Positions 24,303 to 63,999 of a stretch of 64,000 nt of DNA are shown piece by piece. The notes beneath the pieces are model-generated. The model made no database searches and had not been told where the DNA came from. It was given only the letters and a program-made list of their open reading frames with translations. Origin of the DNA: an uncultured Fibrobacter sp. (GTDB taxonomy: Bacteria > Fibrobacterota > Fibrobacteria > Fibrobacterales > Fibrobacteraceae); NCBI RefSeq assembly GCF_947166265.1, contig NZ_CAMVDO010000001.1, forward strand, positions 62,001 to 126,000, in the 5' to 3' direction. A program made the translations under genes and the position numbers. The first letter of the stretch is position 1; the number at the start of each line of letters is the position of its first letter.

Positions 24303-24324
24303 CAAACGCTACGGAGACTACTTT

Positions 24325-24378
24325 ACACGCTCGCATGGCCTTGGCCTTCGGCCAACGAATGCTCGCTTAGCAAAGTCA
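24325..24378 (+). repeat. Dispersed repeat (GCTCGCATGGCCT...GAATGCTCGCTTAGC)
   Basis: Nearly identical to the reverse complement of 63660-63720, which lies inside the truB frame. The shared ends are CACGCTCGCATGGCCT and GAATGCTCGCTTAGC; the middle is the palindrome GGCCTTCGGCC or GGCCTTGGCCTTCGGCC. Confidence 0.75.
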
Positions 24379-24426
24379 TCTCCTTCGCTTTTGCAATGCC
24401 AATAAGGCAGCAAACGCCCCACAATT

Positions 24427-24470
24427 GTCATCCTGAGCGTAACGCCGTAAGGCGTGAATCCGAAGAATCT
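24427..24470 (+). repeat. Degenerate copy of the GTCATCCTGAGCG...AAGGATCT repeat
   Basis: Starts GTCATCCTGAGCGTAACG and ends CCGAAGAATCT. Compare 50086-50120, and the reverse complements of 31381-31414 and 63526-63567. Confidence 0.6.
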
Positions 24471-24477
24471 ATAACTT

Positions 24478-31100: not shown

Positions 31101-31341
31101 CGCCGGTAGCCACTTCCACGATTTTTTCGGTAGTGGTATTTTCGCCGCAAGCCGTGAGGAGGACGGCAATAAGAAACGCTGCTAGAGATCCTTCGACGCG
31201 CTTCGCTTGCACTTCGGCAGGCTCAGTGTACCACTCAGGATGACAGTTTTGTATGGATCTTGCCATGGCAAAACAGCCCTTCGGCAGGCTCAGGGACCTA
31301 TAGTTCGAGGATGACGTGACGGGGGAAGAAAATTTTTTCAT
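28183..31341 (-). CDS. FISUMP lipoprotein with collagen-like region and repeat-extended signal peptide
   Basis: 1052 residues. The N-terminus is unusual: MKKF is followed by ~47 residues encoded by dispersed repeats before the hydrophobic core and lipobox (LAAFLIAVLLTAC). Residues ~165-235 form a collagen-like run of Gly-X-Y triplets (GKDGADGKQGLQGEPGVAG and on). Next comes the domain shared with the 24988 gene (SGVSQKGPFLSGSKV, MLEASGYYRNEVTG, LEYERVIYLV), then Cys-rich segments. The C-terminal FISUMP domain has VFAENLRY, GRYYTWTAAV, CPEGWHLPNDIEW and FFVRCFQD. AAAGGTG upstream supports the start. Surface protein of unknown role. Confidence 0.85.
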   Translation of the reverse strand: MKKFSSPVTSSSNYRSLSLPKGCFAMARSIQNCHPEWYTEPAEVQAKRVEGSLAAFLIAVLLTACGENTTTEKIVEVATGGTEIVSSVKDLPKCTKNNQGEFAYVKGEPSARICVDGKWFATVAKDTSADFSCTTKELKDKSGLKIICNGDSIGVVLNGANGKDGADGKQGLQGEPGVAGKDGADGEQGIQGEKGDTGEKGDPGAAGKDGKNGTNGTNGTNGKDGTGCTLAQKGTKVTITCGEKSTTIDIGSGSGSVVDTVELDSEKVSVSLDSVSGVSQKGPFLSGSKVQVKELESGRTLAQTGNNFDGKILNDKGEFRIPSRMMVSQYMMLEASGYYRNEVTGEESKSPLTLFGVTNVLLGNVVNINLLTHLEYERVIYLVVHEKMTVRQAKEQAQKEIFGLLDIDATGFSNSERLSIAGSSDEDGALLAFSIMFQGDRSVAQLTELLTKISTDMEKDGTWDDAKTRMDIADWSADTDSSGRLATIRGNVAAWGLSAMVPNFEQYIRHFWTTEYGLDSCNAKMAGTVKAATAGKRKGSKTRFICKDIDGLGDMRWAIASDFEKDTYQWKAGKDGALKNGDVTDAKYVYDKTGSYNGTVGWRMAVAVENVYGGCVEALYDSIRSYRGANEAGYYQCQKATHTWVLTNNYLMIDTQGWENGTDGLAKRGDSTGFCYVYDTSAVYRGWRTGNDDDCSLGLQGCTKGYVGIMKLGLVEDIYFVCDADEWRPATPQEEIACRNKGVCRLCTESMQGFTEKRDGVFYVCDKQDWREFNCAEKKMGLCMANDSSLVEACETVGSFKIDYVCSEDHWHAVTSPFEYTLDAWNAKRDAYNAAMVKAGVNSDSIITDPRDNNTYRTVVINGKRVFAENLRYADSATTVNLKGQTWCYNNEMKNCKIGGRYYTWTAAVNLNKQWLRTSASALIKNPHQGICPEGWHLPNDIEWKTLFNTDWYTGVSDYAVQQMRGFYGWTEATDSSGFSAFPAGLYYEGSFYDIGLNVHFWSATEDGSLSAYFWSLDANTATLDYYSRGNYNRYKHHGFFVRCFQDDPAAP
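31187..31312 (-). repeat. Composite dispersed repeat inside a signal-peptide coding region
   Basis: Reading the minus strand: AGGTCCCTGAGCCTGCCGAA followed by GGGCTG (31265-31293), a ~20-base spacer, then GTCATCCTGAG...GTCGAAGGATC (31188-31246). The same two-part arrangement occurs at 31381-31464 and 63526-63616. Confidence 0.8.
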
Positions 31342-31380
31342 AAGAAAGCACCTTTTTCCCCTACAATTTAAATTATTATA

Positions 31381-31464
31381 GATCCTTCGACTCGTTACAC
31401 TCGCTCAGGATGACACTTCTATGTGGATCACACATTCGGCCCTTCGACAGGCTCAGGGACCTTA
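31381..31464 (-). repeat. Composite dispersed repeat, intergenic copy
   Basis: GATCCTTCGACTCGTTACAC...CAGGATGAC (31381-31414), 22-base spacer, then CGGCCCTTCGACAGGCTCAG GGACCTTA (31437-31464). It lies between the start of the FISUMP gene and the gene at 31554, only about 70 bases from the in-gene copy. Confidence 0.8.
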
Positions 31465-36611: not shown

Positions 36612-37253
36612 ATGAAAAAAGCTTTGTTGAGCGCCTCCATGGTGTCCATGGCAATTCTCTCCGGTTGTGGAGACTCCGATACCGAGTCCGTTGCTTCTGC
36701 ACCGATGCCCGACGGAGTCGTCAAGACGGTCGCCGACCTGGGTACCTGCAGCGGTTCCAGCGGCAACGTTATGCAAGTCATCGCGACGGGCAGCTATTAC
36801 CGTTGCGAAGGCGGCGAATGGGTCGAACAGGGCTGGTTTAAGGAAAAGCCGGCCTCGTCCAGCACCGTAACAATCAAGGACGAATCCAGTTCCAGCGCCA
36901 AGAAGAAAGACTTTGACGATTCCAGCGCAAGCACCGCTCCTAAAAGTTCCTCGTCCGAAGAGTTAGAGTCCAGCTCCTCCGAAGAAGAAGAATTGGAATC
37001 CAGCTCCAGCGAAGAGGAAGAAATCGAAAGCTCTTCCTCCGAAGAAGAAGAATTAGAATCCAGCTCCAGCGAAGAAGAGGAAATCGAAAGCTCCTCCTCC
37101 GAAGAAGAAGAATTAGAATCCAGCTCCAGCGAAGAGGAAGAAATCGAAAGTTCCTCCTCCGAAGAAGAAGAACTGGAATCTAGCTCCAGCGAAGAAGAAG
37201 AGGTCATTGGAAGTTCGGATTCTAGCGAGCCGATTCCTGACGAAAACGACTAA
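36612..37253 (+). CDS. Lipoprotein with Ser/Glu tandem repeats
   Basis: 213 residues: signal peptide with lipobox ILSGCG, a short folded part with three Cys (DLGTCSGSSGN, YYRCEGGEWVEQGW; the latter resembles the short GxW segments of FISUMP lipoproteins), then ~80 residues made of alternating EEEELESSSS and EEEEIESSSS units. The GGAG ribosome site supports the start. The tail may be a flexible, highly charged stalk. Confidence 0.8.
   Translation: MKKALLSASMVSMAILSGCGDSDTESVASAPMPDGVVKTVADLGTCSGSSGNVMQVIATGSYYRCEGGEWVEQGWFKEKPASSSTVTIKDESSSSAKKKDFDDSSASTAPKSSSSEELESSSSEEEELESSSSEEEEIESSSSEEEELESSSSEEEEIESSSSEEEELESSSSEEEEIESSSSEEEELESSSSEEEEVIGSSDSSEPIPDEND
36949..37205 (+). repeat. Minisatellite coding for ESSSSEEEE units
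   Basis: About eight units of 30 bases coding for E-E-E-E-[LI]-E-S-S-S-S. The DNA alternates 60-base double units (Leu type, Ile type) that differ only by silent changes such as TCC/AGC. Likely variable in length between strains. Confidence 0.85.
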
Positions 37254-50057: not shown

Positions 50058-50085
50058 GGGAATTCGGATTGAAAATATTGGAGTG

Positions 50086-50120
50086 TCATCCTGAGCGAGT
50101 GTAACGAGTCGAAGGATCTA
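50086..50120 (+). repeat. Dispersed repeat abutting a TTG start
   Basis: GTCATCCTGAGCGAGTGTAA then CGAGTCGAAGGATCT: the exact reverse complement of most of 31381-31414. It ends 5 bases before the TTG start at 50126, and its AAGGA is the only ribosome-site-like stretch. Confidence 0.8.
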
Positions 50121-62901: not shown

Positions 62902-63999
62902 TTATTCATCTTCCCCTAAGTAGAACTTCGGCTTAATGCGCCCCGGTTCATAGTGACATAGGCTCAGGACTTCGCCCTGCATATTCGCGACAAACACATG
63001 GCCCTCGGGGCCTACGCCCTCGATTTTCTCTTTCCACGGGAGCCAATTGCCCTGGCGAATGACGGCCACCTGTTCATCGGTCAGGCGCACCACCGGAAAA
63101 TCGAGCACCGCATCGACCGGCAACAGGTTTTCTCGGGTCAAGTCCTCGCCACGCACCGCCTTATCGAGAGTCACGTTACCGATGCGGTGTCTGCGAATCT
63201 GCGATACGCAGGCGTAGGTCCCGAGGGCTCGTCCGATGTCGCGTCCAAGAGCGCGGATGTATGTTCCCTTGGAACATTCGCAAATCAAGTCGAATGTCGC
63301 AAATTCCTTGCCGGAACAGCCCTCGGTTACATTTCCCTCGCCAATCACCTTGAGTTCGCTAATGCGAATCTTGCGGGGTTTTAATTCAATGTTGCGGCCG
63401 CGCTCCATCAAGTCGCTTGCACGGACACCGTTGATTTTGACGGCACAGTATTTCGGCGGCACCTGTTCGATATCGCCAACAAACTGCGGGAGCACCGCTT
63501 CGAGCATTTCGCGAGAAACGCCCTGGATCCTTCGACTACGAGCCTCCGGCTCTTCGCTCAGGATGACACTTTCATTTTTTCCATCTTTCGGCCCTTCGAC
63601 AAACTCAGGGACCTTACTAGCAACATCGCCCTGGATGCCAATGTCTTTATCTGGCATAGGCTGCGAATCGCTAAGCGAGCATTCATCGGCCGAAGGCCGA
63701 GGCCATGCGAGCGTGCAATTTGCAGCCGGAGCCACAACAACGCCTTCGGCTCTAGGATGACGTTCGTCAGCCGAAGCCACATCAACAGCACGTTCATCCT
63801 GCGCGACGACTTCGCCATCCCACTCGAGGGTATCGGTTTCGTAGCCCAAGTGCAGCCTAAAACTATAGCACTTGTCCTTCGCCTCGACAAACGGCAAAAG
63901 ACGCGTGCAGCGGCCGGTCGCCGCAATAATCAAGCCAGACGCGCGCAAGTCAAGCGTACCCGCATGACCTACGCGTTTCGTAGAAAAGACCCTTTTCAG
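62902..63999 (-). CDS. truB: tRNA pseudouridine(55) synthase TruB, 5' partial, with repeat-derived insertion
   Basis: Makes pseudouridine 55 in tRNA. The frame enters from outside the window with KRVGHAGTLDLRASGLIIAA, containing the catalytic Asp of the GTLD motif. Then GRCTRLLPF, DKCYSFRLHLGYETDTLEWD and the C-terminal half (VGDIEQVPPKYCAVKINGVR, YIRALGRDIGRALGTYACVS). Between GEVVAQDERAVDVA and VSREMLEAVLPQF lie ~88 residues coded by dispersed repeats (63526-63770) that normal TruB lacks. No stop or frameshift interrupts the gene. Confidence 0.92.
   Translation of the reverse strand: MKRVFSTKRVGHAGTLDLRASGLIIAATGRCTRLLPFVEAKDKCYSFRLHLGYETDTLEWDGEVVAQDERAVDVASADERHPRAEGVVVAPAANCTLAWPRPSADECSLSDSQPMPDKDIGIQGDVASKVPEFVEGPKDGKNESVILSEEPEARSRRIQGVSREMLEAVLPQFVGDIEQVPPKYCAVKINGVRASDLMERGRNIELKPRKIRISELKVIGEGNVTEGCSGKEFATFDLICECSKGTYIRALGRDIGRALGTYACVSQIRRHRIGNVTLDKAVRGEDLTRENLLPVDAVLDFPVVRLTDEQVAVIRQGNWLPWKEKIEGVGPEGHVFVANMQGEVLSLCHYEPGRIKPKFYLGEDE
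63526..63616 (-). repeat. Composite dispersed repeat inside truB
   Basis: Minus strand: TAAGGTCCCTGAGTTTGTCG AAGGGCCG, 20-base spacer, then GTCATCCTGAGCGAAGAGCC...GTCGAAGGATCC. Same two-part order as 31381-31464 and 31187-31312. Read in frame as SKVPEFVEGPKDGKN and SVILSEEPEARSRRIQ. Confidence 0.85.
63660..63720 (-). repeat. Dispersed repeat inside truB, second type
   Basis: Minus strand GCACGCTCGCATGGCCTCGG...CGAATGCTCGCTTAGC type; matches 24325-24378. Read in frame as NCTLAWPRPSADECSLSDSQ. A third partial unit (TCATCCTAGAGCCGAAGGCG) lies at 63741-63761. Confidence 0.8.

Follow-up and report, generated by a model that had tools for sequence, protein, structure and literature searches.

The truB gene at the edge of this Fibrobacter sequence raises the question of how a conserved tRNA-modifying enzyme came to carry a long extra segment in one of its loops, and whether that segment is a domain of its own or repeat DNA read as protein. 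We analysed a stretch of 64,000 nucleotides, here called the window (C1:62001–126000 of a 3.77-Mb genome in 89 contigs). The truB frame comprises 388 codons, is uninterrupted and begins with a TTG start immediately after the rbfA stop codon, in a gene order that we take, TruB apart, from recognition of the translations to be infB, rbfA, truB, ribF. The best match of the product among solved structures is RNA-bound E. coli TruB (1k8w), and a search of the genome returned a single truB copy, which, together with the unbroken frame, rules out a pseudogene lying beside an intact gene.

The variable loop follows TDTLEWDGEVV and extends up to FxGDI, linking the DTLEWDGEVV strand to the helix that precedes GDIEQ. 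It measures 107 residues compared with 19 in the relatives L003 and L005, an excess of exactly 88 residues, as the initial annotation had estimated; the corresponding loop has about 18 residues in E. coli TruB (1k8w) and 18–20 in TruB of several other phyla. The 88 extra residues are four stacked dispersed repeats, all with relatives elsewhere in the genome, which follow one another along the gene in the order B, D, C, A (Table 1). At least two repeat families had been proposed for positions 63526–63770; the repeat-bearing stretch at 63524–63762 agrees with this, and the families are in fact four modules. Full-length relatives of module B were found in L018, L027 and L036, and a Pfam search of TruB gave no match inside the insert.

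Table 1 Features of the truB locus, repeat copies in the window and related genes elsewhere (L-numbered loci carry their own coordinates).
Feature	Position	Strand	Remarks
truB, tRNA pseudouridine-55 synthase	62902..63999	minus	5′ end beyond the window, at C1:126068; Pfam TruB_N, E 2.5e-38
Variable TruB loop	63484..63804	minus	107 codons vs 19 in empty relatives
Module A, full-length TGTC-tagged REP, CCA tail	63524..63568	minus	Read as SVILSEEPEARSRRIQ
Module C, related repeat, type AAGGTCCCTGAG...TCGAAGGGCC	63589..63615	minus	Read as KVPEFVEGP; repeat family D3 (31272, 31435)
Module D, GCTCGCATGGCC repeat	63668..63716	minus	Read as CTLAWPRPSADECSLS; inverted copy 24323–24371, 92%
Module B, CGTC-tagged REP, 3′ side truncated	63741..63762	minus	Read as RHPRAEG
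Module D copy outside truB	24323..24371	plus	
Intergenic module A copy	24426..24471	plus	
Intergenic composite, modules A + C	about 31376..31464	minus	
Intergenic module A copy	about 50077..50120	plus	
TilS with repeats at three places	L129:1213–2421; also L144–L161	minus (L129)	
RluA-like pseudouridine synthase	L117:1321–2418	plus	Linker ahead of the catalytic domain carries a single sense REP (TACHPEQAKHVEGSN), in frame

For the 365 TruB residues encoded within the window, AlphaFold modelling from 24 sequences gave a mean pLDDT of 75, with the core mostly above 85 and insert residues 79–157 below 50. Because the TruB fold is kept and the insert has low pLDDT, the insert is predicted to form a disordered excursion on an otherwise normal enzyme.

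REPs are short, imperfectly palindromic, non-autonomous elements, and the repeats found in truB are dispersed in a comparable manner. The motif of module A (TCNGGATGACA) has 84 matches in the genome compared with one for a reversed control, and 36 of 45 sampled copies were intergenic, as judged for one family by simple ORF calling in 40 stretches (about 200 kb) plus the window. Module D has at least nine genome copies, module C recurs outside truB at 31272 and 31435, and the A + C composite also recurs; the between-gene copies first reported at 24325, 31381 and 50086 are real (Table 1). Comparison of target sites yielded as consensus only a G before the tag, shared by 18 of 26 copies. Across the phylum, the REP motif was present in 28 of 28 Fibrobacter genomes searched and nearly absent from 18 other genomes. 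At 36944–37201 the window also holds an array of 30-nt units in tandem, whose similarity alternates at 60 nt.

Module A reads TGTC-ATCCT-GAGC...GTCGA-AGGAT-CCA and folds with its tag and tail unpaired; within the fold, GA mismatches separate an outer stem of 5 bp from a hypervariable inner stem or hairpin, also of 5 bp. The outer stem hardly varies among seven copies of 45 nt, and all five inner-stem pairs vary on both sides yet stay paired (98.8% of cells). Inner-stem covariation was 0.452 compared with 0.119 in shuffles, none of 500 of which reached the observed value; because a single genome supplied all seven copies, which are related, this is not a strict probability, and slid controls (at most 0.056) agree with it. 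The first two stem positions are complementary A/T pairs in all seven copies (columns 5–42 and 6–41, A-U and U-A). An unpaired end tag was found as TGTC in module A and as CGTC in module B, L025, L051 and L016, and for the unpaired tail the TruB copies of the window, L025, L051, L016 and L027 have CCA, many intergenic ones CTA or CTC. Two of the four modules, A and B, thus bear a CGTC-type REP tag; modules C and D were placed in no published family.

We then compared TruB in 35 of 36 genomes of the genus and at 19 further Fibrobacter loci from a second, overlapping collection, giving 55 loci that represent 45 distinct combinations of core and loop. In the same-genus genome G008, estimated to be 99% complete, the search returned no TruB, which may reflect loss of the gene, a break between contigs or a diverged sequence. 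Loop length ranged from 19 to 107 residues over the 55 loci, always with an intact frame, and loops were either empty (19–20 residues) or filled with differing repeats, the two states being mixed over the tree. Fillings differ by clade: the loop contains CGTCATTGCGAACCCCGAAGGGGTGAAGCAATCCA in L051, CGTCATTGCGAGCGAAGCGAAGCAATCCA in L025, TGTCATTCTGAGCG...GAATCTA in L013 and L014, and TGTCATCCTGGAGCCGAAGGCGATAGGATCCA in L036, and other filled loops contain runs of the heptamers GGAATTC or GAGACGA. The near relative L002 carries modules D and A at the same positions as the source genome, and two closely related pairs differ in state, L005 (19 residues) and L055 (61 residues), which are sisters with support 98/91, and L033 (20 residues) and L036 (67 residues), with support 89/81. 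Outside the genus, no more than about 40 bases separate the two loop-flanking matches, so that a large insert is absent there.

With the loop left out of the tree, parsimony requires no fewer than 12 changes in tag presence. Read cautiously, this would correspond to about ten independent gains, a number that is approximate because support is low at many nodes and one repeat type lies in an unresolved clade. Exchange of truB between species, or conversion of repeats, could mimic independent gains.

Two further features of the filled loops were observed. The L036 insert begins with sequence from a distinct dispersed repeat, about 100 nt long and present many times in each of G004, G000, G001, G019 and G033 (72–100% identity). 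The tandem heptamers GGAATTC/GAGACGA, read as EFGIRNSEFGI or ETRDERRETRDER, share loops with REPs in TruB of L009, L011, L015, L022 and L021 and in the RluA linkers of L163, L174 and L178; a change in length by one unit would shift the frame.

The search for repeats inside genes, covering one family in the sampled stretches, extended the initial annotation beyond truB: in the same genome, in-frame repeats are also present in two genes that, from their translations, we take to be tilS (two repeats) and an RluA-like pseudouridine synthase (one repeat). TilS open frames range from 349 residues where tagged repeats are absent (G003 and G005) up to 604 residues (G006), lengths that can include sequence upstream of the true start, and TilS shows the TruB pattern of repeats in stronger form. 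The RluA linker was dropped as evidence of recurrence, being naturally variable and containing a tagged repeat only in this genome. Elsewhere, repeats form the C-terminal tail of a probable regulator (L126:1369–2376, minus strand), and at L105, L111 and L120 they occur at the N-terminus of ORFs for putative lipoproteins, the true start codon of which is uncertain.

Orientation is uniform, or almost so, within each gene: tags were sense in 20 of 20 distinct tag-bearing TruB loops and nearly all antisense in TilS, which simple random insertion followed by selection for an open frame does not predict. Stop codons were rejected as the reason for the sense orientation in TruB, since 26 copies gave 33 open frames in sense and 39 in antisense, and a replication-strand preference was likewise rejected, as both orientations occur among the four family-A copies in the window. 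In the source genome, 15 of 19 family-A copies between genes of the same direction were in sense (p 0.02), which suggests a bias linked to transcription. A bias of this general kind could explain TruB, where 11 independent events at 15/19 would give 0.07, but not TilS.

Y1 transposase genes were detected in 7 of the 23 Fibrobacter genomes searched and in none of the other 16. A CGTC-like repeat occurred near one of ten Y1 transposase loci sampled, and these loci lacked the flanking repeats of a cognate RAYT. Whether or not a genome had the gene made no significant difference to its repeat number (Mann-Whitney p 0.16), and a RAYT or other Y1 transposase is not supported as the mobiliser; among the Fibrobacter genomes and Y1 loci searched, we found no repeat-linked transposase.

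Our main reading, to which we assign a probability of roughly 85%, is recurrent in-frame insertion of repeats into a permissive TruB loop, the insert being kept as a disordered excursion with little catalytic effect. Repeats would insert throughout the Fibrobacter genome, perhaps mobilised in trans by a hairpin-recognising enzyme; insertions that break needed genes would be lost, and those leaving an open frame in a solvent-exposed loop would be tolerated. The TruB loop would be one such permissive site; it has gained repeats on many separate occasions within the genus, and once occupied it may accept further ones, giving composite inserts. The insert most likely remains in the mature protein with little effect on catalysis; we infer that it is translated and nearly neutral. 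The many empty and differently filled loops, together with the dispersed copies, support the original proposal that mobile-like repeats may have been tolerated in frame here.

A single ancestral insertion, later diversified by internal change, nesting, gene conversion and deletion, with short loops as secondary losses, would explain why some neighbours clearly have in common an inherited insert whose centre has changed: L009, L011 and L015 keep an outer repeat around differing inner parts, and module D is common to L001, L002, L006, L007 and L053, shortened in L007. The same ambiguity, between a hotspot and one old decaying insert, has been raised for RPE-4, 6 and 7 of Rickettsia (PMC3767692). 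We consider this history unlikely, since empty loops have the length seen in E. coli and other phyla and hold no repeat remnant, and from one clade to another the loop is filled by repeats that are unrelated in type and differ in their boundaries. The uniform orientation per gene would be accommodated if TruB and TilS contained true insertion hotspots, with the mobiliser's target or strand preference fixing the orientation and some repeat-encoded loops having been co-opted to bind RNA or to regulate these tRNA-modification genes, a combination that we regard as a little less likely still.

Selection of the repeats for a function in tRNA-modification genes, either as mRNA hairpins tuning translation or as RNA-binding loops, would fit the finding, from a small survey of genes, that three RNA-modification genes of this genome (TruB, TilS and RluA-like) carry in-frame repeats, and their consistent orientation within each gene. 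It is nevertheless quite improbable, given that sister species lack inserts altogether, that insert sequence and length differ and that disorder is predicted. A genuine extra TruB domain, or an assembly error, is suggested by the length of the insert alone; the alignment of TruB over Fibrobacter showed insert-free loops in many species, other repeats elsewhere and no homologous conserved domain, there is no Pfam match, and comparable inserts occur in many genomes, including L002, making this explanation close to negligible.

In the gut bacterium genus Fibrobacter, before-and-after versions of repeat DNA turning into protein sequence can be compared directly. Dozens of species have an empty, singly filled or stacked loop in two enzymes, so that the rate, neutrality and structural tolerance of the process become testable. 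Much of the length variation of housekeeping enzymes in Fibrobacter would, on this evidence, be repeat-derived, not domain gain. Palindromic repeats that lie in frame within genes have been known since the work on Rickettsia; what is added here is a new phylum, a variant architecture of the repeat, a range of empty and filled loops in one genus and the reuse of one loop by different repeats. A literature search, conducted mostly without subscription papers and supplements, found no prior report for Fibrobacter, and the genus name has 0 occurrences in PMC3733652.

Among known systems, the closest is the CGTC class of REPs, in which a CGTC (often TGTC) tag precedes a stem of 8–9 bp beginning with AT, a loop of 4–5 nt and a tail that is mostly CCA, odd loops being allowed in some families (PMC3733652). 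REPs of this class lie within truB in S. maltophilia, E. litoralis and S. alaskensis, RPE-1 lies in truB of R. conorii, and no dedicated transposase has been found (PMC3733652). With intragenic REPs, including those in truB, already published, the phenomenon is known in kind. The Fibrobacter repeats share with this class the unpaired CGTC/TGTC tag, the AT stem start, the short tail, a mostly intergenic distribution with occasional in-frame copies, including in truB, and the lack of a dedicated transposase. They differ in that module A has a 5-bp outer stem, GA mismatches and a variable 5-bp inner hairpin instead of a continuous stem of 8–9 bp with a loop of 4–5 nt, and we therefore term it a CGTC-like variant, outside the four published families. 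REPIN/RAYT systems are likewise short hairpins of high copy number and mostly intergenic, but bear a GTAG tag, whereas the Fibrobacter tag is CGTC or TGTC. Rickettsia palindromic elements, the parallel drawn by the initial annotation, are also palindromic and in frame in housekeeping genes, with orthologues that are empty or carry other groups nearby; Fibrobacter truB, too, is a conserved gene with an in-frame repeat that orthologues lack. Fibrobacter differs in being free-living and not a reduced intracellular host, in its many empty-site species and in the several unrelated repeat types within one loop. The parallel nevertheless holds, and is closer than first thought, because RPE-4 and RPE-6 have themselves been classed as CGTC REPs (Di Nocera, De Gregorio and Rocco 2013, PMC3733652).
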